DNA of 64,000 bases from Candidatus Cybelea sp. (GTDB lineage Bacteria > Vulcanimicrobiota > Vulcanimicrobiia > Vulcanimicrobiales > Vulcanimicrobiaceae), in assembly GCA_036489315.1 (NCBI GenBank), contig DASXFZ010000047.1:1-64000 (forward strand). The letters are read 5' to 3'. The position numbers and the translations under genes are program-made. Below the pieces are notes generated by a model. It was not told the origin of the DNA and did not search any database. It was given only the letters and a program-made list of their open reading frames with translations. Shown here in pieces: positions 14,208-34,256 of this stretch; within the stretch, counting starts at the first letter, position 1, and each line of letters begins with the position of its first letter.

Positions 14208-14687
14208 ATGACTACTCACACGATCGAACTCAAAGCCCGCATCAAACACCCCGTGGCGATCTTTCCCGAGGCGATGCGGGCGCTCCAGGCCCTAGGAAAG
14301 GTCGCGCACAACTCCGCCGTGCCGCTGCCGACGCTGCTGCTGGTCGAACTGCGCGCGAGCCAAATCAACGGCTGCAGCGTCTGCGTCGATATGCACTCGC
14401 GCGAGCTCAAACGCCACGGCGCGACCGACGAACGCATCTTCGGCGTGGCTGCCTGGCGTGATAATCCGGCTTTCGACCAAGCCGAGCGCGCCGCACTCGC
14501 GCTCACCGAGGCGCTGACGCGCATCAGCGACGGCTCAGAGCCCGTCTCCGACGACGTCTGGGACGAAGCCGCCCGTCATTACGATGAAGCCGGCCTCGCG
14601 ACGCTGGTCATTGCGATTGCGAATATCAACGTCTGGAACCGGCTCAACGCCGCCGTACGACAGGTCGTAGGCGACTGGAAGGTTTAG
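14208..14687 (+). CDS. Carboxymuconolactone-decarboxylase-family (AhpD-like) protein
   Basis: 159 residues. The CSVCVDMHSRELKRHGATDE segment is the AhpD-like CxxC...H motif, with helices before and after as in the CMD fold. Such proteins act as alkylhydroperoxidase-type thiol reductants or are of unknown substrate. Its stop codon overlaps the GTG of the next gene by one base, so translation is probably coupled. CMD-family genes are the classic partners of ECF41-type sigma factors, where the sigma factor controls the CMD gene. Confidence 0.9.
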   Translation: MTTHTIELKARIKHPVAIFPEAMRALQALGKVAHNSAVPLPTLLLVELRASQINGCSVCVDMHSRELKRHGATDERIFGVAAWRDNPAFDQAERAALALTEALTRISDGSEPVSDDVWDEAARHYDEAGLATLVIAIANINVWNRLNAAVRQVVGDWKV

Positions 14688-15550
14688 TGTCATCGGGGAT
14701 GGCGGATTGGCTGACGGAAAGGTTTGAAGAAAACCGCTCGCATTTGCGAAGCGTTGCGTATCGAATGCTGGGTTCGCTCGACGACGCCGACGACGCGGTG
14801 CAAGAAGCGTGGCTGCGCCTCAGTCAGCGAGAGAACGGCGGCATCGAAAATGTCGGCGGCTGGCTCACGACGGTCGTGGCGCGGATCTGCGTGGACATGC
14901 TGCGCACGCGCCGGGCCAAACGCGAGGAATCGCTCGAGCTTGGCATTCCGGACTTCATCGTGAGCCGCGAGGAGAGCCCCGAAGAGGAAGTGGTGACGGC
15001 CGATTCGGTCGGCCTGGCTCTCCTGGTCGTTCTCGACAGTCTCACGCCCTCCGAGCGCCTTGCGTTTGTGCTGCACGATATGTTTGCGATGCCGTTTGAG
15101 GAGATCGCATCGGTCGTCGGCAAATCGCCGGCGGCCGCGCGTCAACTCGCGAGCCGCGCGCGCCGGCGCGTGCAGGGAGCAACCCCGCCCAACGCCGGCT
15201 TCGCGCAACGGCGCGCCGTCGTCGACGCCTTTCTCGCCGCGGCTCGTGAAGGTGACTTCGAAGCGCTCGTAGCGGTGCTCGACCCCGACGTTCTGCTGCT
15301 CGCCGATCGCGAACCGGCGGCAAAGGGCATTCGCGGCGCGCACGCCGTCGCTTCACAGGCGGTTACCTTCTCCACCAAGGTCGTTGCGCGGATCGAACCC
15401 GTGGTCGTCAACGGATCGCCGGGGGTACTGTCGTGGCTCGCCAATGGCCAGCCGCTCTCGATCATGGGATTTGTCGTCGGCGGCGGGCGCATCCGCGAGA
15501 TGTACGTTATCTCACGACCCGAACGCGTTCGGCAGCTCCTTGGGCTTTAA
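14687..15550 (+). CDS. ECF sigma factor with SnoaL-like C-terminal domain (ECF41/SigJ-like)
   Basis: 287 residues. Region 2: FEENRSHLRSVAYRMLGSLD then DADDAVQEAWLRL; region 4: TPSERLAFVLHDMFAMPFEE with a helix-turn-helix ending in AAARQLASRARRRV; from about 178 a SnoaL/NTF2-like domain (VVDAFLAAAREGDFEALVAV). This build matches ECF41/SigJ sigma factors, which lack a classical anti-sigma factor and are controlled by their own tail. Motifs described for ECF41 (WLPEP linker, DGGGK, NPDKL) are replaced here by LGIPDF, DREPAA and RPERV, so it is a divergent member. GTG 14687 overlaps the previous stop; ATG 14699 is an alternative start. The CMD gene upstream is the likely target. Confidence 0.9.
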   Translation: MSSGMADWLTERFEENRSHLRSVAYRMLGSLDDADDAVQEAWLRLSQRENGGIENVGGWLTTVVARICVDMLRTRRAKREESLELGIPDFIVSREESPEEEVVTADSVGLALLVVLDSLTPSERLAFVLHDMFAMPFEEIASVVGKSPAAARQLASRARRRVQGATPPNAGFAQRRAVVDAFLAAAREGDFEALVAVLDPDVLLLADREPAAKGIRGAHAVASQAVTFSTKVVARIEPVVVNGSPGVLSWLANGQPLSIMGFVVGGGRIREMYVISRPERVRQLLGL

Positions 15551-22563: not shown

Positions 22564-22612
22564 GTCACCGGGGCTCGGCTGAGGCAAGGCCGAAATTCCC
22601 GAGAGCCGTGAC
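22564..22612 (+). promoter_or_regulatory. Conserved hairpin-closed leader element, copy 1
   Basis: The 49 bases begin GTCACCGGGGCT and end GCCGTGAC; GTCAC and GTGAC pair to close the element, and CAAGGCCGAAA sits in the middle. A second copy with the same ends and core is at 33235-33285. Both lie 24-38 bases upstream of a gene for an exported protein on the same strand. It could be a structured 5' leader, an operator or a mobile palindromic repeat; I cannot match it to a known riboswitch class. Confidence 0.5.
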
Positions 22613-22649
22613 GTTACGGAGCAAGGGGTACAGTGATGAAAAGTGACTC

Positions 22650-23891
22650 ATGATCTCTCTCATCGCCGCAGCGGTGTATGCGTTGCACGCCATCTCGCTT
22701 CCGTCAGGATGGTCGTTAGTTACACCAACGTCCGGCTTCGACGTTTCGACCGAGCCGACGTCCGAAGCGATCGCTCGAAACGGCGCCGTTGCCGTCTTAT
22801 TAACGCGGACAGGTAACCCTGGAGGCGCAGCGCGGCGTCTACTAATTGTTCGAGCAAATGGTACGCGCCTGATCCTGCAACCGCGATCCCTTGACATCGC
22901 AAATGCCTTTCCGCATTCCACTAAGCCGTCAGACTGTATGGCCGATGTCGATTCCTGCCCGTACTTCGAACGCGTCACGCTGGCGCCGGATGGCACGCCA
23001 TTTGTTACGCTGACCTCCGACTTCAGCGGCGCCTACTCGGGATCAGAGCGACGAGGTTTCGTATGGAATGGCAGATGGCACCCGGTGCCGCCCGGCAAGG
23101 CATTTAGCGGAGTTGGGAAGCCGGATGATCCTGAGAACGTTTCGATTTCGGCAGCTGACGGCGGATTGATATTTGCTTTCGTGGGCGACTACCAAGACAG
23201 GTTTCCTAACGAGGATCTGGACCTGGCGTTGCAAGATCGGTATTACATGGCCGAGGTATCAGGCGTGAGCTACGAGGGCGTAACCGTTGCACTCGGCATC
23301 GGCAATGCGACCGCCATGAGCGGAGCATTCGTAGCTGGATTCGACGGAGACCTCAAACTTGTACCGTCCAGAAATCACGATTTGGTCGCAGTCGCTTGGC
23401 GTTGCGCATTCAACAAACTCGCCAACGCTCGCGCATGCGCGAGAAACACGCTCGGCCCCGGGATTGCATACGGCATCGACTCATACGGAGAGGCGGTCGG
23501 CGACAATGAGTCGTCGGTGCCCGACTTGGGGTCGTTGCCGCTGCATAGCGCTGGTTTCCCGGTGCTCTGGCGCCATGGGCATACGCTGATGCTTTCCAAA
23601 GACGATCGGGGTGCGGCGTACGCAATCTCGGGAAGCGGCGTCATAGCGGGCACATTAACCACCGGACCAGGCTCGGACGCTCTACTAAGTGGCTTCGTCG
23701 CAAATGCGCGTGAGAAAACACCTCGAGCCTTCCCGCTTGACGAGCTCGTTCAGAATGACCGAGGGCGGCACGTAGAAGCCGCTTTAGGGGTAGCCGACGA
23801 TGGCCGCATTCTCGCCTTTGTCACCGACCGCGATGGTCGGAGCGAGCTTGCCGTGTTAGCGCCGGCACCCGCCGTTAGAAAGTCTCGATAA
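22650..23891 (+). CDS. Exported protein, HAF-like repeats
   Basis: 413 residues. An in-frame TGA six bases before the ATG fixes 22650 as the first possible start. The N-terminus ISLIAAAVYALHAISLP is signal-like. The body has extended beta repeats (RVTLAPDGTPFVTLTSDFSG, then RRGFVWNGRWHPVPP; later IAYGIDSYGEAVGDNESS and GAAYAISGSGVIAGTL), the last two being of the type seen in HAF/YD-poor extracellular propeller proteins. Likely extracellular and of unknown ligand. A five-codon upstream frame (ATG 22636) with its own ribosome-binding site ends overlapping this start. Confidence 0.75.
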   Translation: MISLIAAAVYALHAISLPSGWSLVTPTSGFDVSTEPTSEAIARNGAVAVLLTRTGNPGGAARRLLIVRANGTRLILQPRSLDIANAFPHSTKPSDCMADVDSCPYFERVTLAPDGTPFVTLTSDFSGAYSGSERRGFVWNGRWHPVPPGKAFSGVGKPDDPENVSISAADGGLIFAFVGDYQDRFPNEDLDLALQDRYYMAEVSGVSYEGVTVALGIGNATAMSGAFVAGFDGDLKLVPSRNHDLVAVAWRCAFNKLANARACARNTLGPGIAYGIDSYGEAVGDNESSVPDLGSLPLHSAGFPVLWRHGHTLMLSKDDRGAAYAISGSGVIAGTLTTGPGSDALLSGFVANAREKTPRAFPLDELVQNDRGRHVEAALGVADDGRILAFVTDRDGRSELAVLAPAPAVRKSR

Positions 23892-23972
23892 TTGCGCACC
23901 TGCGAATGCGCCGGCCCGTTCGCCGCTCCGCCGCTGAGTGGGCGCAGCCTGCCAAGACCGCGCGGTGACGCG

Positions 23973-24914
23973 TTATGGCAGCAGGGGCGGCCAGTACGCT
24001 GATCCCTCCGGCGTATGGAGATCTTTGCCGATTTGTCTCTTGGACGGCTTAAGTGAGCCGGGTGCGAATTCGGCGATCGAGCTGCTGCCGTAGTTAACAA
24101 CATAAAGCCAGCCTTGCTCGTTGACCGTGACGTTCACGGGGCCATCTAGTCCTTGCGTGATCGTTTGATCTGGCTCGCTGGCGCCGGATTTAAACTCAGC
24201 GACCGTGTTTTGCAATTCATTGGCGACGTATAGCGTCCCGTTCGCATCGACCGCGATGCCGAATGGTGACGTTACACCATCGGTGATGGTGCGGAATGGG
24301 GCCTTCTTGCCGGACGCGTAAACAACGACATTTCCACTGCCTGAGCTCGCGCGATTTGCAACGTAAATATTTCCCGACCGATCAATCGCGACGCCGAGCG
24401 GGTTGGTCAGACCCTTCATGATTATCGTCGCCGGTTTTCTCGAACCCGGCGCATATTCGGTTAGGCTTGGACCCGAGCGCCGTTTGAAGCGAAATACGTA
24501 AGGGTCCGTTACCCAAAGATTGCCCTCGCTGTCAATCGCGCAGAACACCGGCTCCCCGAGGCCCTTTTTTATGATCCTTGTGGGGCGGCTTCGACCGGCT
24601 GGGTATTCCGAGATCCAACCCGCAGCGTTCATTACGTACAACGTTCCGTTCCCGTCAATGCAATCTCCGGATGGCTCCTCCAAGCCGATCGTGACCTGCC
24701 TTTCGGGGCTCGGGCTCTTTCCGGAAGCATCGTACACCAAGATGCTGTTGCTGGCGTACTCCGTGACGAACAAGCGCGGCTGGGAGGGAGCTCGCACCCC
24801 GGAGGTATTTTGCCTCATCGCCTCCGGCGCGGCGAACGTAGCCTGCGAGTCGCATCCTGAGAGCAAGGCCGCAGCCGCACCGATGCTAAGCGCAAAGCGA
24901 TCCAAGTCTGCCAT
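23973..24914 (-). CDS. NHL-repeat lipoprotein
   Basis: 313 residues from ATG 24914, which has GGGAGGGAG upstream; seven extra codons to 24935 are unlikely. Lipobox LLSGC at about position 20. The mature part carries NHL blades: SGDCIDGNGTLYVMNA, VFCAIDSEGNLWVTDP, LGVAIDRSGNIYVANR, FGIAVDANGTLYVANE, VNVTVNEQGWLYVVNY. Expected to be a lipid-anchored beta-propeller facing the periplasm or outside. Its start is 40 bases after the stop of the paralogous lipoprotein gene upstream, so they may be cotranscribed. Confidence 0.85.
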   Translation of the reverse strand: MADLDRFALSIGAAAALLSGCDSQATFAAPEAMRQNTSGVRAPSQPRLFVTEYASNSILVYDASGKSPSPERQVTIGLEEPSGDCIDGNGTLYVMNAAGWISEYPAGRSRPTRIIKKGLGEPVFCAIDSEGNLWVTDPYVFRFKRRSGPSLTEYAPGSRKPATIIMKGLTNPLGVAIDRSGNIYVANRASSGSGNVVVYASGKKAPFRTITDGVTSPFGIAVDANGTLYVANELQNTVAEFKSGASEPDQTITQGLDGPVNVTVNEQGWLYVVNYGSSSIAEFAPGSLKPSKRQIGKDLHTPEGSAYWPPLLP

Positions 24915-24954
24915 GAACACTCCCTCCCCAAGCACAATGGATTTGCAGAACGGA

Positions 24955-25971
24955 CTATTTCTTCGCTGCTGTCACCCCGAGCGGCTCATCGAAGCTCCCC
25001 GTGAAGACCGCAAGCGGCGAACCGCCGGCCGGGTATTTGAACACCTCGCCGCCATTATTTCCCGCGTCGCCGCAATACAGCAGGCTTTTAACGATCCACG
25101 TCTGGGCGCAATCGCCGGCCCCAGTGTACTGTATCGTGTTCTTCAACGTCGCCGTCGTTCCACTAAGCGAGTACTGGTACGTCTGGCTGGTGATCTGGTC
25201 AAACACGGTAACGTTGGTGCCATCCCACTGCACCGAGCCGGGGAAGACCGGAGAGTTGCTTGTCTTGATCGTAACGAATTTGCTGCTGCCCTTCGGAAGC
25301 TCGACCAGTCCGAAGCTGCCGCTCTCAAAAAACCCGTCGGCAAAGAGATTGCCTTTGGCATCGTAGCCGTTAAAGAACTCTTCGGATAACGGAGTATTGT
25401 ACACCGTACCCGAGCCGGTCGCGTTCTTGAAGATCACGACCTGACCGCCGGAACTGCCAGAATTACCTATTAGGACCCCGACCGCAAGATCGCCGCTAGT
25501 GTTCATAGCACAGCTGGACGTGTACATGTAGTCAAGAGAAAGCGATCTGAGCAGCTTCTTTGGAACCTTGTACTCGGTAATCAGGTCGTTCGTACGCCCG
25601 GCGTTCCAGAAAATCTTCTTCCCGTAGCCGTACAAAACGTTGGTGCACCCCTGGCCGCCAAGGCCATTGATCTGACCGATCATTGCGTCACTTTTTGGAT
25701 AGTTGAAAATGCTGCCGTACGAGCCGTAATCGTTGAAGATGAACTCGTAGTCCTTCGACTTCGCTTTATCCGGTACAAGTTCCGCATAACGCGGTAGTGG
25801 ATTCAGCCTCGCCGCCGTTACCGGCCTCCCATTCACGAACAGCGTCCTACCGACGTGGGTCGTAGTGAAGGTCGCGGCTGACGGCGTCACCGTCGAGCCG
25901 CTCCCGCACGCCGAAACAATGGCGAGCGCTACGACAGCGCCGGCGCACTTAAGTAAACCAACGGTGTTCAT
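24955..25971 (-). CDS. Lipoprotein of an unnamed family, tandem copy 2
   Basis: 338 residues with signal and lipobox (LLKCAGAVVALAIVSACGSG) and an AAGGAG ribosome-binding site. By eye about 90% identical (33 differences) to the gene at 26216-27232, with the same length. The body has propeller-like segments: IFNYPKSDAMIGQINGLGGQ, ITEYKVPKKLL, FNGYDAKGNLFADGF, ELPKGSSKFVTI, FPGSVQWDG, VFKYPAGGSPLAVF. Each ends a beta unit with a Y-P or L-P-K-G turn, as in NHL-like proteins without the strict NHL consensus. Probable surface or periplasmic binding protein. Confidence 0.82.
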   Translation of the reverse strand: MNTVGLLKCAGAVVALAIVSACGSGSTVTPSAATFTTTHVGRTLFVNGRPVTAARLNPLPRYAELVPDKAKSKDYEFIFNDYGSYGSIFNYPKSDAMIGQINGLGGQGCTNVLYGYGKKIFWNAGRTNDLITEYKVPKKLLRSLSLDYMYTSSCAMNTSGDLAVGVLIGNSGSSGGQVVIFKNATGSGTVYNTPLSEEFFNGYDAKGNLFADGFFESGSFGLVELPKGSSKFVTIKTSNSPVFPGSVQWDGTNVTVFDQITSQTYQYSLSGTTATLKNTIQYTGAGDCAQTWIVKSLLYCGDAGNNGGEVFKYPAGGSPLAVFTGSFDEPLGVTAAKK

Positions 25972-26170
25972 TAACCTTGCTCCTTTGAAGTAGATATCAG
26001 GCGTCGCGCTCGGTCTCTTGACAAGGCTTAGTTAGCGATCGGCACCCCGAGCAGCGATACTGGTGTTCACTTGGTCTTCTACCGGCGTTGGAGCCGCGCC
26101 TTCACGGTGCGTCCGTCGTCGGGGACCGCCCTGCCGCTTTGCACGGCGTCACGCCAAGCTTCGACGTTGG

Positions 26171-26201
26171 GCTCGCTGGGGTGCGGCGCACCCCAGCGAG
26201 C
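26171..26201. terminator. 14-base perfect inverted repeat after the first tandem lipoprotein gene
   Basis: GCTCGCTGGGGTGC and its exact complement flank a three-base loop, 15 bases beyond the stop codon of the minus-strand gene at 26216. No T tract follows on the minus strand, so it is either a terminator of the stem-only type, an mRNA 3'-end stabiliser or a remnant of the duplication that made the two copies. Confidence 0.6.
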
Positions 26202-26215
26202 ACGTGCGTTAAAGA

Positions 26216-27232
26216 CTATTTCTTCGCTGCCGTCACCCCGAGCGGCTCATCGAACTCTCCCGTGAAGACCGCAAGCGGCGAACCGCCGGCCGGATATTTG
26301 AAGACCTCACCGCCGTTATTTCCCGCGTCGCCGCAGTAGAGCAGGCCCTTAACGATCCACGTCTGGGCGCAATCGCTAGCCCCGGTGTACTGTATCGTGG
26401 TCTTCAACGTCGCCGTCGTTCCGCTAACCGTGTACTGGTACGTCTGAGCTGTGCCCTGGTCAAACACGGTGACATAGGTGCCATCCCACTGCACCGAGCC
26501 GGGAAAGTCCGGAGAGTTGCTCGTCTTGATCGTAACGAACTTGCTGCTGCCCTTTGGAAGCTCGACCAGTCCGAAGCTGCCGCTCTCGAGAAACCCGTCG
26601 GCAAAGAGATTGCCTTTGGCGTCGTAGCCGTTAAAGAACTCTTCGGATAACGGAGTGTTGTACACCGTACCCGAGCCCTTCGCGTTCTTGAAGATCACGA
26701 CTTGACCGGCGGAACCGCCGGAATTACCTATTAGCACGCCTACCGCAAGATCGCCGCTAGTGTTCATGCCGCAGCTGGATGTGTAGGTGTAGTCAAGAGA
26801 AAGAGACCTGAGCAGCTTCTCTGGAACCTTGTATTCGGTAATCAGGTCGTTCGTACGCCCGGCGTTCCAGAAAATCTTCTTCCCGTAGCCGTACAAAACG
26901 TTGGTGCACCCTTGGCCGCCAAGGCCATCAATCTGACCGATCATCGCCTTGCTTTTTGGATAGTTGAAAATGCTGGCGTACGAGCCGTAATAGCTGAAGA
27001 CAAACTCGTAGTCCTTCGACTTCGCTTTATCCGGTACAAGTTCTGCGAAAGGCGGCAGGGGACTCAGCCTCTCCGCCGTTACCGGCCTCCCACTCACGAA
27101 CAGCGTCCTACCGACGTGGGTCGTATTGAGCGTCGCGGCCGACGGCGTCACCGTCGAGCCGCTCCCGCACGCCGAGACGACGGCGAGCGCAACGACGGCG
27201 CCGGCGCACTTAAGTAAACCAGGGGTCTTCAT
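26216..27232 (-). CDS. Lipoprotein of an unnamed family, tandem copy 1
   Basis: 338 residues, signal MKTPGLLKCAGAVVALAVVS with lipobox SACGSG and an AAGGAG ribosome-binding site. It is the tandem partner of the gene at 24955-25971, repeating with a period of 1261 bases; some similarity continues into the 5' flank (a GCCGCGCC...GTCGG-GACCGC pattern upstream of both). A third, much more divergent relative is at 33309-34256. Function unknown; likely extracytoplasmic propeller-like binding protein. Copy differences are clustered in the first 100 residues, which hints at relaxed or diversifying change near the exposed N-terminus. Confidence 0.82.
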   Translation of the reverse strand: MKTPGLLKCAGAVVALAVVSACGSGSTVTPSAATLNTTHVGRTLFVSGRPVTAERLSPLPPFAELVPDKAKSKDYEFVFSYYGSYASIFNYPKSKAMIGQIDGLGGQGCTNVLYGYGKKIFWNAGRTNDLITEYKVPEKLLRSLSLDYTYTSSCGMNTSGDLAVGVLIGNSGGSAGQVVIFKNAKGSGTVYNTPLSEEFFNGYDAKGNLFADGFLESGSFGLVELPKGSSKFVTIKTSNSPDFPGSVQWDGTYVTVFDQGTAQTYQYTVSGTTATLKTTIQYTGASDCAQTWIVKGLLYCGDAGNNGGEVFKYPAGGSPLAVFTGEFDEPLGVTAAKK

Positions 27233-27498
27233 TAATTCTTTGCTCCTTTGAAGCGGAAATCAGGGGTCAGCCCGCTTTTCGACCGCCATAGAGGCCGCGC
27301 CTCCGTAAGCACAGTCGGAGACCGCTTTGTAAGCAGCTCGGTACGCGCACACCGACAAGACGCAGACGCTGACGTTCGGCACTCCCGCTTCTTGGTCCGT
27401 AATGCACTCGGTGGTTTGAGCTTACGGTCCGCCGCTAATCACATAGCGAAGGAAAACGGCTGCTTTTCTGCTCCATTAGGGGCTCATCTGTTCTTGCG

Positions 27499-28788
27499 CT
27501 ACAACGGCATTCGGAAGAGCGTTCCGCATGCTACCTCAAAGTCGAGGCAGTCTGAGAAGTTGCCCCCCGCGTGCGTCGTTCCGTACAAGGAGCCGTTCAG
27601 CTCAAAGAGCGCGTCGGGCGCGGTGCCGTCGGTGCCGCCCTTGAAGCTATAGAGGACGCTCTCGTGACCAGAACCGTCGATCTTGAAGATCGTGCCGTCA
27701 CCGTTTGCGCCGCCGGTAGCAGTTGTGCCGTAGATTTCGCCGTTCACACTGATAAGCGCTGCGCCGGGATTCTTACCGTCGAGGCCGCCGGCGAAGCTGT
27801 AAACGACGCGCTCATCCCCGGACGGGGTTATCGAAAAGACCGTACCTAGCTCGTGTTCTCCGCCCCAGTAGGTCGTGCCGTACAGTCTGCCGCCGACGTA
27901 GATCATCTTGGCAAACGGCTGCACGCCATCGGGCACACCGCTTCCATCGGTGCCGCCGAATTGGTGCAGTACCGTTTCAACACCCGAGGTGGTGATTTTG
28001 AAGACGGTACCGGATCCGTACGGCTGGCCTTCCGTCGTGCCGTAGAGCATCCCGTCGACGTCGGTGAGTCCAGCCTCAGGACGTTCGCCGTCGGAACCGC
28101 CTTTGAAGCTGTAGATGGCGTTTACCTGGCCGGATGACGAAGCGGCGAAGACGGTCCCGTAACCCTCACTTCCGCCGAGCGCCGCGGTACCGTATAACGT
28201 GCCGCCTTCGTCGACAAGGTCGCCATTCGGATCGCTGCCGATTCCGGATCCATTGAAGCTCTGGAGCACGGTTTCCGAACATTTTCCCGCGTGACAGGAG
28301 AGGCTGAACATCGTACCAGCCAGTCCCCGACCGCCGCCGGCAGTTGTGCCGTAGAACGTACCGTTGCGATCGATCAGACCGCCATTGGGTAACTCGCCGT
28401 CTTTGTACTCACCGTTCTTGTTATGCGAGAACTGATAGAGGACCCGTTCGCGCTTTCCTGACGGGCTTATTGTATAAACGGTGCCGCAGCCCGTGTCCAA
28501 GCTGCAAAAGCTTCGGCCCCCTCCGTTGGTCGCACCGAAGAACCTGCCGTCTACATACGTCAGGGCGCCGGCAGGGAATGCGGCGTTCGGGCGCCCCTTG
28601 AAGCGATAAAGGATTGCGATCGATCCTTTGCCGCTCGGTGACGCGGTCATCGATGGCCTCTTCGCTGTTGATGAAGCCGCTTCGTACGAAGTCGCAGCTA
28701 GGTTGGATTCGGGAAGACTCGCTCTCGCCCCGCAGCCTGCGATTGCAATAGCCGCGATGGTCCAGAGGTAACGGAGACATCTGCACAT
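27499..28788 (-). CDS. GloVer-repeat (TIGR03803-type) lipoprotein
   Basis: 429 residues; signal peptide with lipobox IAIAGCGA. The mature part has about seven tandem units of about 45-50 residues built as LYGTTxxGGxxGxGTVFxIxxxGxExVLYSFxGGxDGxxP, for example GLTDVDGMLYGTTEGQPYGS and AALISVNGEIYGTTATGGAN. This is the Gloeobacter/Verrucomicrobia (GloVer) tandem repeat, predicted to form a beta-propeller with unknown ligand. Four cysteines near the C-terminus and in unit 2 may add disulfides. Two more genes of this family lie at 29654 and 31153. Confidence 0.88.
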   Translation of the reverse strand: MCRCLRYLWTIAAIAIAGCGARASLPESNLAATSYEAASSTAKRPSMTASPSGKGSIAILYRFKGRPNAAFPAGALTYVDGRFFGATNGGGRSFCSLDTGCGTVYTISPSGKRERVLYQFSHNKNGEYKDGELPNGGLIDRNGTFYGTTAGGGRGLAGTMFSLSCHAGKCSETVLQSFNGSGIGSDPNGDLVDEGGTLYGTAALGGSEGYGTVFAASSSGQVNAIYSFKGGSDGERPEAGLTDVDGMLYGTTEGQPYGSGTVFKITTSGVETVLHQFGGTDGSGVPDGVQPFAKMIYVGGRLYGTTYWGGEHELGTVFSITPSGDERVVYSFAGGLDGKNPGAALISVNGEIYGTTATGGANGDGTIFKIDGSGHESVLYSFKGGTDGTAPDALFELNGSLYGTTHAGGNFSDCLDFEVACGTLFRMPL

Positions 28789-28986
28789 GTCAAAAGCGCC
28801 TTTCGCATAGTTGAATGGTCCGTTTAGGACCGACGCTTACCTCGGCCTCCCCTCCAGAGTTTATTTCGACATGAATTGGGACATTCGGCTCATAGCGATA
28901 GAGCGAAACTCCCATTCAACTGACCGGACGGCACGGTGGTAGAGAGTCTATGTTTTAGACTGTCGCAGCGGGGCAAGCGAGTATCG

Positions 28987-29289
28987 CTAATAACCACTCT
29001 GCTCGTAAATCAACTCGCCATCTACGAACACACGGTAGGTGTGTGGCCGAATCCCAGCAATGATTAACGGGCGCTCCCTTTCAATCACAACTCGGTGCTT
29101 CTCGACCTTGCCAACTCCAAACTCGTGGCGTCGTTTTCGTGCAAAGCCGAAATGGGTAGAAGGCAAGAGCCAACTCTGCCGCGCCACTTGTTCACCATTC
29201 ACAAGGATCTGCATAGCGCCAGTGAACCAATTCCGAGAAAGCTCAATCCTTGATCTTTCTTTGTAACCGACTTCAACCGTAAATCTCAT
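28987..29289 (-). CDS. Small soluble protein, unknown function
   Basis: 100 residues, MRFTVEVGYKERSRIELSRN, strand-rich throughout: MQILVNGEQVARQSWLLPST, FEFGVG-type turn, HRVVIERERPLIIAGIRPHT, YRVFVDGELIYEQ. The two NGE/DGE turns mark a small beta-sandwich. No signal peptide. Codon use is like its neighbours. I do not recognise a named family. Confidence 0.7.
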   Translation of the reverse strand: MRFTVEVGYKERSRIELSRNWFTGAMQILVNGEQVARQSWLLPSTHFGFARKRRHEFGVGKVEKHRVVIERERPLIIAGIRPHTYRVFVDGELIYEQSGY

Positions 29290-29653
29290 AATCGCTCCGA
29301 GCTCTCTGGACCACCTGAATTCCGGATAGCGTAATACTTCGGTATTTCCGTTCGCGGGCCTCGAGCCGATGCCGGGCCGCGGGGCTTTTGAAAGATGCGA
29401 GTGGCTCGTTCATTCTTGCAGAACTGCCCAAAGGGAGTTCCACCTTTACCGCGATCACTTTGGATCGCGTGATACAGAGCCTATCGCGCGCGGCCTGCTC
29501 GCGCGTCCGTGCCGTGTAAAGACGCCGCCTGCGAGGCACTGAGAGGCGCTGCGCAAGCTCGCGGGCTCGTAGTGCTCGACTCGCTGGGGAAGCGCAGAGA
29601 CGCGGCGAACGTTCCTAGGCACCCACCCTTTCGTGCGTCAAGGAGAAAGGCAA
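29290..29653. other. 364-base stretch without a supported gene
   Basis: Upstream of two divergent genes (28987 minus, 29654 plus). It contains a short hairpin at 29450-29469 (CGCGATC with its complement) and, at 29641-29645, the AGGAG ribosome-binding site of the next gene. A minus-strand frame at 29273-29539 is arginine-rich and does not look coding. I see no RNA gene. Confidence 0.5.
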
Positions 29654-30874
29654 GTGAAGATTCTCGATTCCGGCCCCTGCGCATTAACCTGCGTGGCTGT
29701 CGCGTTGCTCGCAGGCTGCGGCGGGTCGCAGCCGCCGATCGGCGCACCGGGCGCCATGCCGGTGGGCGGCGCGCTCACCACGCGCAGCAATAGCTCGAAC
29801 TACGAAGTTCTGCACGTATTCCGCGGAAGGCCCGATGGTTGGGACGTCCAAGCGTCGCTGCTTGACGTGGACGGTACGCTCTATGGCACATCGATTCAAG
29901 GCGGCCGATTCAATAAGGGGACGGTGTACACTATCACGACAAGCGGCGCGGAGCAGGTTCTATACAATTTTCCGCCGGTCGGTCGCGGCCGCCACCCTTG
30001 GTCGAATCTGATCGACGTGAAGGGCACGCTCTACGGAACCACCTATCGGGGCGGCAAGTATCAACTTGGAACGGTATTCAGCATCGGCACGAACGGCGGG
30101 GAACATGTGATTTACAGCTTTGGGCCGGACTCCGACGGTGAAAACCCCGAGGCAGGTTTAGTCGACGTGCACGACACGCTCTACGGTACGACGGTGTTCC
30201 AAGGCGAAGACGGCGCGCCCCCTGGATGTACGTTCCACGGCGGAACGGTTGGATGCGGAACCGTGTTCAGTGTAACGCCGTCGGGTACTGAACGCGTGCT
30301 GCACTACTTTGGCAGCGGCTCTGACGGTATATCGCCGTCGGGCCTGATCGACGTGAAGGGTACGCTCTACGGAACCACAGGCGGCGGCGCACACGGCTAC
30401 GGCACCGTCTTTAGCATCACGACCGGAGGTTCGGAAAAAATACTCTACAGTTTCGCCGGCGGCGACGACGGCGCACAACCCTCGGCGAGCTTGATCTCCG
30501 CGAACCGCAGGTTGTACGGCGTTACAGACGAGGGAGGTACGTCCGGCAACGGGACGGTCTTCAGCATCACGAGGAGCGGCTCGAAAAAGATAATCTATAG
30601 CTTCGGGCCGCCGGACGACGGCAGATTTCCGCTGGGGGGCTTGATCGACGTCGACGGCGTGCTCTACGGCACGACATCTCAAGGAGGCACGGCCGGGTTG
30701 GGGACAATTTTTCGCATCGGCTCTTCCGGCAAGGAGCAGATCGTGCACAGTTTCGGCGGTAGCACCGACGGTGTCGTTCCTACGGCGGCTCTGATCGACG
30801 TGAACGGCACGCTGTACGGCACGACATCCGGTGCGGGTGGCCCGTTCTCAACCGTCTACTCGTTCACTCCCTAG
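29654..30874 (+). CDS. GloVer-repeat lipoprotein
   Basis: 406 residues from GTG 29654 (AGGAG eight bases upstream); an upstream in-frame start at 29633 lacks a ribosome-binding site. Lipobox LLAGC is followed by GGSQPPIGAPGAMP, a linker almost identical to that of the unrelated lipoprotein at 33309. The mature part has about eight GloVer units (DVDGTLYGTSIQGGRFNKGT, DVKGTLYGTTYRGGKYQLGT, and so on), each with a VLYSF/VIYSF strand. Likely a membrane-anchored propeller on the cell surface. Same strand and similar build as the gene at 31153. Confidence 0.87.
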   Translation: MKILDSGPCALTCVAVALLAGCGGSQPPIGAPGAMPVGGALTTRSNSSNYEVLHVFRGRPDGWDVQASLLDVDGTLYGTSIQGGRFNKGTVYTITTSGAEQVLYNFPPVGRGRHPWSNLIDVKGTLYGTTYRGGKYQLGTVFSIGTNGGEHVIYSFGPDSDGENPEAGLVDVHDTLYGTTVFQGEDGAPPGCTFHGGTVGCGTVFSVTPSGTERVLHYFGSGSDGISPSGLIDVKGTLYGTTGGGAHGYGTVFSITTGGSEKILYSFAGGDDGAQPSASLISANRRLYGVTDEGGTSGNGTVFSITRSGSKKIIYSFGPPDDGRFPLGGLIDVDGVLYGTTSQGGTAGLGTIFRIGSSGKEQIVHSFGGSTDGVVPTAALIDVNGTLYGTTSGAGGPFSTVYSFTP

Positions 30875-30924
30875 TGCTCCCCTGCGTTCAGGGGCTTAGC
30901 GCAAAGACCGCCCCCTCGGTGCAC
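30874..30924 (+). promoter_or_regulatory. Possible degenerate copy of the conserved leader element
   Basis: Begins GTGC and ends GCAC (pairing arms), with GGGGCTTAGC and CAAAGACCG inside, similar to GGGGCTGAGC and CAAGACCG of the copy at 33235. It starts at the last base of the preceding stop codon and lies upstream of the gene at 31153. Similarity is weaker than between the two clear copies. Confidence 0.3.
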
Positions 30925-31018
30925 TAACCATATGCGCCACCAGATACCGGCTCCGCTGGAGTTCAACGACGCAGCGGCGAACGTACTGAACCACCATTTT
31001 CCCGGGGGAGCACCACAG

Positions 31019-31156
31019 ATGGGACGGTTCGTCGTAAAGCGTCTTGCGCTGAGCCTAAGCATCGCCGCGGCGTTGCTCACTGAGTTCGGGTTAACCAATC
31101 CCCCAGTCGCCAGTGGCCTAAAAATGGGCTCAGACCCAGGAAGCGAGATCCTATGA
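31019..31156 (+). CDS. Possible 45-residue exported peptide or leader overlapping the next gene
   Basis: ATG 31019 has GGGGGAG eight bases upstream. The product (MGRFVVKRLALSLSIAAALL, then TEFGLTNPPVASG) has a basic start and a hydrophobic core like a signal peptide but no lipobox cysteine. Its TGA overlaps the ATG of the lipoprotein gene at 31153, so translation could be coupled. It may be a translated leader or the remnant of a lost lipoprotein gene. Confidence 0.4.
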   Translation: MGRFVVKRLALSLSIAAALLTEFGLTNPPVASGLKMGSDPGSEIL

Positions 31157-32475
31157 TGCGTTGCTACGTTCTAACCATTCTGGTAATTGGATTTTTTTCA
31201 CTAACCGCGTGCGGAGGCGCTTCGAACGGCTCCTTCGCTCCACGTCTTGCGGGCACGAACGCCCAGCCTTTGAGCAGTGTGCTTCACAGCTTTGGCTCGT
31301 TTCCCGACGCCGAGAGCCCACTCGCCGGGATGCTCGCCGGTAAGAACGGCGAGTACTACGGAACCACTCAGAGCGGCGGTAACCCAGGCAACGGGGCGAT
31401 TTACGAGGTCACGGCTGCCGGCAGCGAGCAAGTAATTTACAGTTTCCAAAGCGGCACAGACGGCGCGGATCCGGTATCCACGTTGATTATGGACAAGAAG
31501 GGCGCACTCTACGGTACGAGCGACACCGGCGGCTCATCCGGCTGCGAAGGGCCCGGCTGCGGCACCGTCTTCAAACTCACACCCAACCAACAAGGTTGGA
31601 CCGAAAGCGTACTCTACCGGTTCACGGGAGGCAACGACGGCGGATCACCGATCGGCGGTCTGCTGATGACCAAGCGCGGAGCACTTCTCGGTACGACGGT
31701 TGGTGGTGGGAGCGGCGGGGGCGTCGTCTTCGAGCTTATGCCGTCGGGCTCTACCTACACCGAGACGGTCGTCCACGAGTTTTCAGGCTCTCCCGACGGC
31801 CTCGATCCGACCGACGCCCTCGTTTCCGATAGCGCCGGGAACCTATACGGTACCACGTCCGAGGGCGGTCTCACGACGTGCCCGTCTCGGTCAAGCTCAC
31901 CCGGCTGCGGCACCGTCTTCAAACTGGCTCCGTCGGGTTCGAAGTATTCCTATTCCGTGATCTACCGTTTCAAGGGTGACGCGGACGGAATCGCGCCCTG
32001 GGCAAGTCTTCTTCGCGGATCTAACGGTGTATTTTACGGCCTGACTATGGAGGGCGGCGCCCTCGGTAAGGGCACGGCCTTCGAACTGACGCCGAAGGGT
32101 TCGCGGTACCGCGAAACGGTGCTCTATTCATTTAAAGGCCGCAGTCACGGCGCGTATCCGCGCTCGGACCTGGTGGAAGACCGCGGCGGAAACCTCTATG
32201 GGACGACGCCGTTCGGTGGCGGCGCGCATTGCCGAGATGGCTGTGGCACCGTCTTCACGCTGGCTCCCTCCGGAAAGACTTTCACCGAACACGTGCTCTA
32301 TACGTTCCAAGGCCCTCGCGCGGGCGACGGCGCGATTCCCCTCGGAGGCGTTCTAATCGACCGCCATCGCAACTTGCTCGGAACCACTTTCAACGGCGGC
32401 GCTTCGCATTATGGCACGATCTTCAGCGTTTGTTGCGCGGCGTCGTCCCCGACACTCCGGGAAGCATCACCGTAA
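31153..32475 (+). CDS. GloVer-repeat lipoprotein
   Basis: 440 residues; ATG 31153 is followed directly by a second ATG. Signal and lipobox: CYVLTILVIGFFSLTACGGA. About eight repeat units, longer than those of the two sister genes and more regular, with SVLYRFTGGNDGGSPIGGLL, LYGTTSEGG, GCGTVFKLAPSG. Several units include an extra CxxxGCGTVF insert (SGCEGPGCGTVFKL, SSPGCGTVFKL, HCRDGCGTVFTL), putting paired cysteines at one propeller position. Likely surface-anchored propeller, ligand unknown. Confidence 0.88.
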   Translation: MMRCYVLTILVIGFFSLTACGGASNGSFAPRLAGTNAQPLSSVLHSFGSFPDAESPLAGMLAGKNGEYYGTTQSGGNPGNGAIYEVTAAGSEQVIYSFQSGTDGADPVSTLIMDKKGALYGTSDTGGSSGCEGPGCGTVFKLTPNQQGWTESVLYRFTGGNDGGSPIGGLLMTKRGALLGTTVGGGSGGGVVFELMPSGSTYTETVVHEFSGSPDGLDPTDALVSDSAGNLYGTTSEGGLTTCPSRSSSPGCGTVFKLAPSGSKYSYSVIYRFKGDADGIAPWASLLRGSNGVFYGLTMEGGALGKGTAFELTPKGSRYRETVLYSFKGRSHGAYPRSDLVEDRGGNLYGTTPFGGGAHCRDGCGTVFTLAPSGKTFTEHVLYTFQGPRAGDGAIPLGGVLIDRHRNLLGTTFNGGASHYGTIFSVCCAASSPTLREASP

Positions 32476-32605
32476 GCGTGGCGCCGTGAATTATCGTTTT
32501 TTTCGAATCTCGTCCGCGCTATGCACGCTCACGCTCGCCATCGCTTGCGCACAGATGCGCCCGCGAGACCGCATCGCCTTTGCCGGCTGTATATTTTGAG
32601 GTGCT

Positions 32606-33121
32606 ATGGACAAGTGGTTTCCTATCCGAACTGCGCGACTGCTGCTGCGTGAGTTTAGAGAGACTGATGAATCGGACTTGCATGAATATGGGGGCGATCT
32701 AGAGGTCTCCAGGTACGTGGCCTGGGGCCCCAACACACCGAAAGACACGCGCCACGTGCTAAGCAATCGTATTGAGAAACAGCGCATATGGCCGCGTAAT
32801 GAGGTCGAGCTTGCGATCGAGCTATCCAAGGAGGAAAAAATAATCGGCAGCATCAGCCTTGTTATCCAGTGCGACGACGACCGTATAGCTTCTTTTGGGT
32901 ATGTGGTAAATCGACGATATTGGGGGCAAGGTTATGCAACGGAAGCCGCCGCCGCACTTCTTAGCCGCGCGTTCCAGGAGCTAGGCCTTCACCGTGTTTG
33001 GGCAACCTGCGATGTTCGCAATGTGCCGTCCTGGCGGGTGATGGAGAAAGTCGGCATGAAGCGTGAGGCGGCCTTCCGACGTGATGTTTTCCAAAAGGGT
33101 GAGTGGCGCGATTCACTGTGA
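32606..33121 (+). CDS. GNAT N-acetyltransferase, RimJ/RimL type, short C-terminus
   Basis: 171 residues; GAGGTG lies just before the ATG. Strand 1 is FPIRTARLLLREFRETDESD; motif A is YWGQGYATEAAAALL; motif B region is TCDVRNVPSWRVMEKVGMKR. It ends at FQKGEWRDSL, where family members normally continue with a final strand (DSLLYA-type). The last strand is therefore probably missing or reduced, perhaps by a nearby frameshift. Acetylates an unknown amine. Stands alone among lipoprotein genes. Confidence 0.83.
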   Translation: MDKWFPIRTARLLLREFRETDESDLHEYGGDLEVSRYVAWGPNTPKDTRHVLSNRIEKQRIWPRNEVELAIELSKEEKIIGSISLVIQCDDDRIASFGYVVNRRYWGQGYATEAAAALLSRAFQELGLHRVWATCDVRNVPSWRVMEKVGMKREAAFRRDVFQKGEWRDSL

Positions 33122-33234
33122 AAGGAACCGCTGATGCCAGCACCAGTAGAGCAGGGCGTTCATTAGTACGTTGAGATACGTAGCGCAGTCATGGAATCCT
33201 GGATGAGAGAATGCGCCCGCCGTAGCTATGCGAA

Positions 33235-33285
33235 GTCACCGGGGCTGAGCCAGGTCAAGACCGAAACAATGCCTCGCGCCGTGAC
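33235..33285 (+). promoter_or_regulatory. Conserved hairpin-closed leader element, copy 2
   Basis: 51 bases starting GTCACCGGGGCTGAGCC, with GGTCAAGACCGAAA inside and ending GCCGTGAC. Arms GTCAC/GTGAC pair, and GGTC...GACC or GGT...ACC makes an inner stem. It shares the ends and the core with the copy at 22564-22612 while the bases between differ, as expected for a selected structure. It ends 24 bases before the lipoprotein start at 33309. Confidence 0.5.
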
Positions 33286-33308
33286 GTGCCCGGCCTCGGA
33301 GGATGGAA

Positions 33309-34256
33309 ATGCCGACCTTTGGACTCATCCGGTACCCGCTGAGTAGCTGCGTCGCTGCCGCATTGCTGGTGGGCTGCGGCGGATCGCAGCCGCCGATCGG
33401 TGCGCCCGCAGCAGCGCAGCAAAGCCCCACTACTATCAGACATGCGCAGCACGGCGGATTCTGGATGAAGCCCGAATCAGCGAGCGGCGACCTCATTTAT
33501 GCAGTAGGCGGTTGCGGTGGAGCGTGCGTCCTAACCTATCCCGGCGGAGAACAGGTGGGACAGATCACTCTGTCTATTGCGTATGCTGCATGCTCCGATA
33601 CCCAGGGCAATGTTTTCATAACGGGCGGAAGCACGGTCGATGAATTTGTGCATGGCGGCGTGACGTCCGTGAATACCTTAACCTTGCCAGGCAACCAAGC
33701 ATCCGGCTGTGCCGTTGACCCGGCGACAAACGATCTTGCCGTTGTCTACGACGAAGTCAGAGTTGCTGTCTTTCCAAATGAAAGCGGTTCGCCGCTAATC
33801 TATTCCACGAAACTGTCGGCAAACTATTGCGGGTACGATAACGAAAGCAATCTTTTCGTTTCCGGAGATAATGAGCAATCGCATACGATTTCCGAGTTGC
33901 CTCACGGGATGACGAAATTTACTATTCTTTCCGTAAAGGGTAAGCTCGGTAATCCAGGGCAGGTGCAGTGGGACGGATCGCATCTCACATATGAAAGCCG
34001 CGACCCCATCAACATCGCGCGATTGTCGATACGTGGCTCTATCGCAAAAGTCATAGGAACGACCTCATTCAAGGGCCACGGCAATGCGGCAATGGCCTCG
34101 TGGATCTATGATGGCAGCGTTTTATTGCCGTACGGCGGAAAAGTAGAAAAACTAAATAAGATCGGATTGTGGCCATATCCTGGAGATGGCAAGCGGACAA
34201 ATAGCATTAACTTTTCGAGTCGCATCTCCGCGGTTACCGTAAGCTCCGTGCCATAG
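33309..34256 (+). CDS. Lipoprotein, divergent member of the tandem family at 24955-27232
   Basis: 315 residues from ATG 33309 (GGAGG six bases upstream; ATG 33303 is too close to it). Lipobox LLVGC, then GGSQPPIGAPAAAQ, the same tether as the GloVer protein at 29654. The body aligns with the tandem pair: NLFVSGDNEQSHTISELPHG against NLFADGFFESGSFGLVELPK, NPGQVQWDG against FPGSVQWDG, and a similar GNAA.ASWIYDG stretch. It lacks the AxGC...NVLYGYGKK part. Likely extracytoplasmic propeller-like binding protein. Confidence 0.82.
   Translation: MPTFGLIRYPLSSCVAAALLVGCGGSQPPIGAPAAAQQSPTTIRHAQHGGFWMKPESASGDLIYAVGGCGGACVLTYPGGEQVGQITLSIAYAACSDTQGNVFITGGSTVDEFVHGGVTSVNTLTLPGNQASGCAVDPATNDLAVVYDEVRVAVFPNESGSPLIYSTKLSANYCGYDNESNLFVSGDNEQSHTISELPHGMTKFTILSVKGKLGNPGQVQWDGSHLTYESRDPINIARLSIRGSIAKVIGTTSFKGHGNAAMASWIYDGSVLLPYGGKVEKLNKIGLWPYPGDGKRTNSINFSSRISAVTVSSVP

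Follow-up and report, generated by a model that had tools for sequence, protein, structure and literature searches.

Known promoters of ECF sigma factors carry an AAC motif in the -35 box and a CGT motif in the -10 box (PMC8103513). Among them, the EcfG promoters of the general stress response in Alphaproteobacteria read GGAAC-N16-CGTT (PMC7083833), the SigH promoters of Mycobacterium tuberculosis read GGAACA and GTT with a spacer optimum of 17 bp (PMC6411747), and the ECF41 promoters read TGTCACA-N16-CGTC (PMC3426412). In the SigW-type ECF promoters of Bacillus subtilis, the -35 box lies within ATTGAAACCTTT (PMC8103513).

We analyzed a window of 64,000 nucleotides from Candidatus Cybelea sp. 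(positions below are those of this whole stretch), in which an earlier note had described two hairpin-closed leader elements before genes for lipoproteins or other exported proteins. Our analysis indicates that the element most likely combines an ECF-sigma-type promoter with a ribosome-binding site and stands before genes of a large family of lipoprotein paralogues. The promoter architecture itself is of a known kind, the ECF layout of a -35 AAC, a -10 CGT, and a rigid spacer of 16 to 17 bp. Like EcfG promoters, the elements pair an AAC-type -35 box with a CGTT -10 box at a near-identical rigid spacing, but the -35 box here is (G)CCGAA(A)C, the spacer is 17 nt, and the boxes stand before lipoprotein paralogues. 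With SigH promoters they share a GAAC-type -35 box, a GTT in the -10 box, and the 17-bp spacer, whereas the organism, the genes, and the flanking bases (here GCCGAAAC in the class of elements that we term class A) are different. The GAAAC of the SigW-type -35 box recurs in class A, whereas the spacer of the elements here is GC-rich. The SigW -10 box is CGTA. An ECF architecture is common to the ECF41 promoters and the elements described here, but the -35 boxes of the two differ.

Both elements, E1 and E2, were present letter for letter at the positions given in the earlier note, and both lie on the plus strand and are homologous to each other. The features of the two loci are as follows, with the two -35 boxes and the CGGAGG motif assigned from the sequence.

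22564..22612, plus strand: E1, predicted class A promoter region (E 9e-11 with a three-copy model, 2.4e-13 with a seven-copy model, R2)
22569..22578, plus strand: upstream block of class A in E1 (CGGGGCTCGG), a putative activator site; the block is conserved in class A only
22589..22596, plus strand: -35 box of E1, GCCGAAAT (consensus GCCGAAAC)
22612..22615, plus strand: -10 box of E1, CGTT, with a spacer of 15 nt from GAAAT against the usual 17
22618..22628, plus strand: Shine-Dalgarno-like GGAGCAAGGGG of E1, which aligns with the conserved GGAGCGAGGAG of relatives
22650..23891, plus strand: exported-protein ORF after E1, without a Pfam or NCBIfam match
33235..33285, plus strand: E2, predicted class A promoter region (E 1.5e-8 with the three-copy model, 1.2e-14 with R2)
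33260..33267, plus strand: -35 box of E2, ACCGAAAC
33285..33288, plus strand: -10 box of E2, CGTG, one off the consensus CGTT and 17 nt past the -35 box
33297..33302, plus strand: Shine-Dalgarno CGGAGG of E2
33303..34256, plus strand: gene of the lipoprotein that follows E2, with ATG 33309 as the probable start; the product has about 60 matches to paralogues across the genome

The short distance to a start codon that had been claimed also held, with 23 nt from 33285 to the ATG at 33309 and 23 or 37 nt from 22612 to the ATG at 22636 or 22650, respectively. The two-arm pattern of the proposed hairpin did not occur in 100 shuffles of the window, and the strict pattern of arms plus core occurred twice in the 3.09-Mb genome and not at all in its reversed control. 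A third copy, E3, was found on another contig of the same genome (G000:C26:4703-4752). The weaker copies suspected at 30874 and 23929-23967 were not recovered, as a model built from the sequences of the confirmed copies gave no match at either place up to E = 10 with filters off. In 40 relatives, the strict pattern had no match beyond the window genome, and a looser core pattern searched in 60 genomes matched beyond the window genome about as often as in the reversed control. When the two arms alone were scanned with a variable gap across approximately 85,000 genomes, none of the 33 matches carried the core, so that the arms by themselves occur at chance level.

Relatives were found with sequence models. 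A sequence-only model of the three copies recovered four more copies from two congeneric genomes, and R2, built from all seven, yielded 37 sites with E < 0.005, located in 7 of the 18 genus genomes. At two weak matches (L217 and L218), both from a different genus of this family, there was no box pair with a spacer of 15 to 20. At 28 of the 37 sites, an ORF of 50 or more amino acids began 3 to 13 nt past the end of the model (control rate, 0.13), and 24 of these 28 ORFs contained a lipobox. These counts support the position claimed in the earlier note, in gene orientation before genes for lipoproteins or exported proteins and with many relatives. The same comparison of 28/37 with a 13% control contradicts its alternative of a mobile or neutral palindromic repeat, the copies of which would be scattered independently of strand and gene starts; because position and strand are strongly constrained, a neutral palindromic repeat is excluded. 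Among the other nine sites are some with disrupted or truncated lipoprotein genes and one before an apparent IS gene. At L182 (G009:C75, approximately 963-1100), an intact class A element is followed by the start of an apparent IS transposase gene in place of a lipoprotein.

Conservation centered on two short boxes, GCCGAAAC (or GCCGAAC) and CGTTC, with 17 nt between them and a Shine-Dalgarno sequence after them. In the ungapped alignment of class A, identity was 0.97 at the boxes, 0.67 in the 17-nt spacer, and 0.76 in the Shine-Dalgarno region, and it was 54% just upstream and 29% farther upstream. By reading the paralogues without class A, we found a second set of lipoprotein upstream regions, class B, that contain GCCGAAC and CGTT at the same 17-nt spacing; the sequence of the spacer differs, and the upstream block is absent. 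The -35 box with its AAC, as GCCGAAAC or GCCGAAC, is nearly invariant across classes A and B with the exception of E1 (GAAAT), and the -10 CGTTC is 97% identical in class A, from which E2 (CGTG) departs. In a set of 169 regions upstream of lipoprotein genes, the pattern CGAA(A)C-N(k)-CGTT occurred 28 times at k = 17 and 0 to 3 times at any other k from 6 to 30, and the coding sequence of the same loci, taken as a control, contained none at k = 17. When all 4-mer dyads were counted with no preset consensus, AACG-N17-GTTC and AACG-N16-CGTT were among the best. The end of the -10 box lay 17 to 24 nt upstream of the start codon in most scored sites. Since the scoring matrix was trained on the very sequences that it scored, the spacing histogram, the dyad count, and the controls weigh more than the matrix scores. 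Likewise, the site counts overstate independence because paralogues share descent, and what carries the argument is how far the boxes differ in conservation from their flanks, together with class B. A same-strand gene within 80 nt upstream was found for 3 of the 36 promoter-bearing genes versus 29 of 93 others (p = 0.006), a difference that is partly trivial because the element itself needs that space.

The boxes, their spacing, their distance to the start codon, and a conservation that peaks at the boxes with no conserved helix are thus properties of the aligned sequences, and they suggest the following mechanism. An ECF sigma factor would direct RNA polymerase to the -35 box (G)CCGAA(A)C and, across the rigid 17-nt spacer, to the -10 box CGTTC, and transcription would start approximately 6 to 8 nt past the -10 box, leaving a predicted 5' UTR of about 10 to 18 nt with little beyond the Shine-Dalgarno sequence. 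We infer that the family may be co-regulated in this way. In class A, the upstream block GGGGCTNAGC lies 5' of the -35 box, contains a conserved CTNAG palindrome (e.g., in L128), and may be an activator site. The shared core and the 3' arm of the earlier note would correspond to the -35 and -10 regions, with the differing bases between them as the spacer. Because the RNA would begin after most of the element, little of the element would be transcribed, and if the promoter assignment is right, the supposed leader would act as DNA rather than RNA. A sigma-70-like promoter was looked for upstream of either window copy, and none was found.

Several results count against the promoter reading. The two window copies are off consensus: in E1 the spacer measures 15 nt and the -35 box has GAAAT rather than AAC, and in E2 the -10 box reads CGTG. 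Their matrix scores were 9.0 each, which 1% and 2.5% of shuffles reached, respectively. E3, with a spacer of 18 nt, is likewise an exception to the 17-nt rule. E1 and E2 are members of the class by homology, and as promoters they may be weak or decaying. In addition, the spacer (0.67) and the block 5' of the -35 box are also conserved in part, which exceeds what a bare promoter would need. A genome-wide scan for the box pattern was noisy, and the patterns gave no clear wider regulon because matches at all spacings were common and the reversed control was biased in composition.

An RNA explanation, in which the element is a structured cis-regulatory leader (riboswitch-like or a protein-binding hairpin) whose covarying arms control translation of the lipoprotein, had several observations in its favor. 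The elements sit just 5' of start codons, the outer arms GTCAC/GTGAC of E1 and E2 pair at 5 of 5 positions, three relatives pair 5 of 5 with the different letters GCCGC/GTGGC, and the outer stem was 84% paired over the first seven sequences and dropped when slid. This stem was lost with the 23 class A relatives, whose arms in fixed register pair at 2.39 of 5 positions versus 2.34 for shuffled arms. A tree-aware covariation test gave no significant pair in 39 gapped or 25 ungapped sequences, the only helix that RNAalifold predicted was a 4-bp hairpin that overlaps the -10 box and hardly varies in sequence, and single-sequence folding gave z-scores near zero. The hairpin closure proposed in the earlier note therefore did not survive the addition of relatives, and the covarying GTGC/GCAC arms that it had drawn from 30874 came from a non-homologue. 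Its proposed checks were answered in part, with many relatives before lipoprotein genes and no covarying helices in the tree-aware test. In an Rfam search, the elements had no match to a described RNA family. Furthermore, if the elements are indeed promoters, the 5' UTR that remains between the -10 box and the start codon would be short. Considering these results together, we regard an RNA leader as quite improbable.

The boxes could also be protein-binding sites of another sort, a transcription factor operator beside a promoter of a different type. Some class A copies carry two GGCTNAGCC units approximately 11 bp apart that are absent from class B and could form such palindromic sites, and the conserved upstream block GGGGCTNAGC and the partly conserved spacer are consistent with this idea. 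Class B, however, lacks the upstream block yet keeps the two boxes and their 17-nt spacing. The sequences of the boxes agree with the -35 and -10 consensus of ECF promoters, and they lie as far from the start codon as expected of a promoter, so that we consider an operator unlikely. The least probable explanation, in our assessment a very remote one, is that the stretch has no function and was copied along with the start of the lipoprotein gene in a recent family expansion or as a mobile repeat. In its favor, the signal-peptide module of these lipoproteins reaches 87 matches in one related genome and 120 in another, conservation runs on into the signal-peptide codons, and a few copies stand before unrelated or broken genes; yet identity far upstream is near random (0.29) against 0.97 at the boxes, orientation and start-codon distance are fixed, and class B has diverged almost everywhere but at the boxes. 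These comparisons favor the ECF-type promoter and its ribosome-binding site.

As for a sigma factor that might read the element, the genome contains 31 matches to sigma region 4 (PF08281), many of them in ECF-type genes. One ECF sigma gene, L296 (region of G000:C1:94272), has GAAC-N16-CGTC approximately 30 nt upstream of its ATG and may be autoregulated from this candidate ECF promoter, the spacing of which differs from the 17 nt of the element. The window itself encodes, at 14687-15550, an ECF41/SigJ-like sigma factor with a SnoaL-like C-terminal domain; a carboxymuconolactone decarboxylase/AhpD-type gene (14208-14687) directly precedes it, a neighborhood as described for ECF41. This sigma factor is an unlikely reader because the ECF41 promoter pattern, with its different -35 box, was looked for at the elements and was absent.

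The gene after E2 (33303-34256) encodes a predicted all-beta product that matches beta-propellers in the PDB, and some of its paralogues match NHL or SMP-30-like families. The shared N-terminal module is found on different protein bodies, including GloVer repeat proteins. We tentatively raise the possibility that one dedicated ECF sigma factor activates dozens of paralogous surface lipoproteins of this lineage simultaneously through a portable cassette, proposed to consist of the promoter, the ribosome-binding site, and the lipoprotein signal peptide, that has repeatedly been set before new bodies. If so, these beta-propeller lipoproteins would be a rapidly evolving group whose expression is coordinated. 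More generally, the analysis removes a candidate new RNA class and puts a testable promoter assignment in its place, and the two-box motif and its site list provide a regulatory handle on a lipoprotein family of the genus that has from tens to more than 100 signal-peptide matches per genome.

Further observations concern the lipoprotein genes themselves. The signal-peptide module, CGGSQPPIGAPGAMPQ, occurs in related genomes in tandem arrays on differing bodies, for example at L241 (G003:C20) and L246 (G016:C77). The lipoprotein N-termini presumably resemble those of Eremiobacterota (WPS-2). After E1, a five-codon ORF at 22636-22653 (ATGAAAAGTGACTCATGA, encoding MKSDS) overlaps the start of the exported-protein ORF at 22650 by ATGA, and it may be a remnant of a lipoprotein start, as relatives begin MKSLD, or a coupling peptide. 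Finally, two near-identical tandem lipoprotein genes of the same family lie on the minus strand at 24955-25971 and 26216-27232, a recent duplication.
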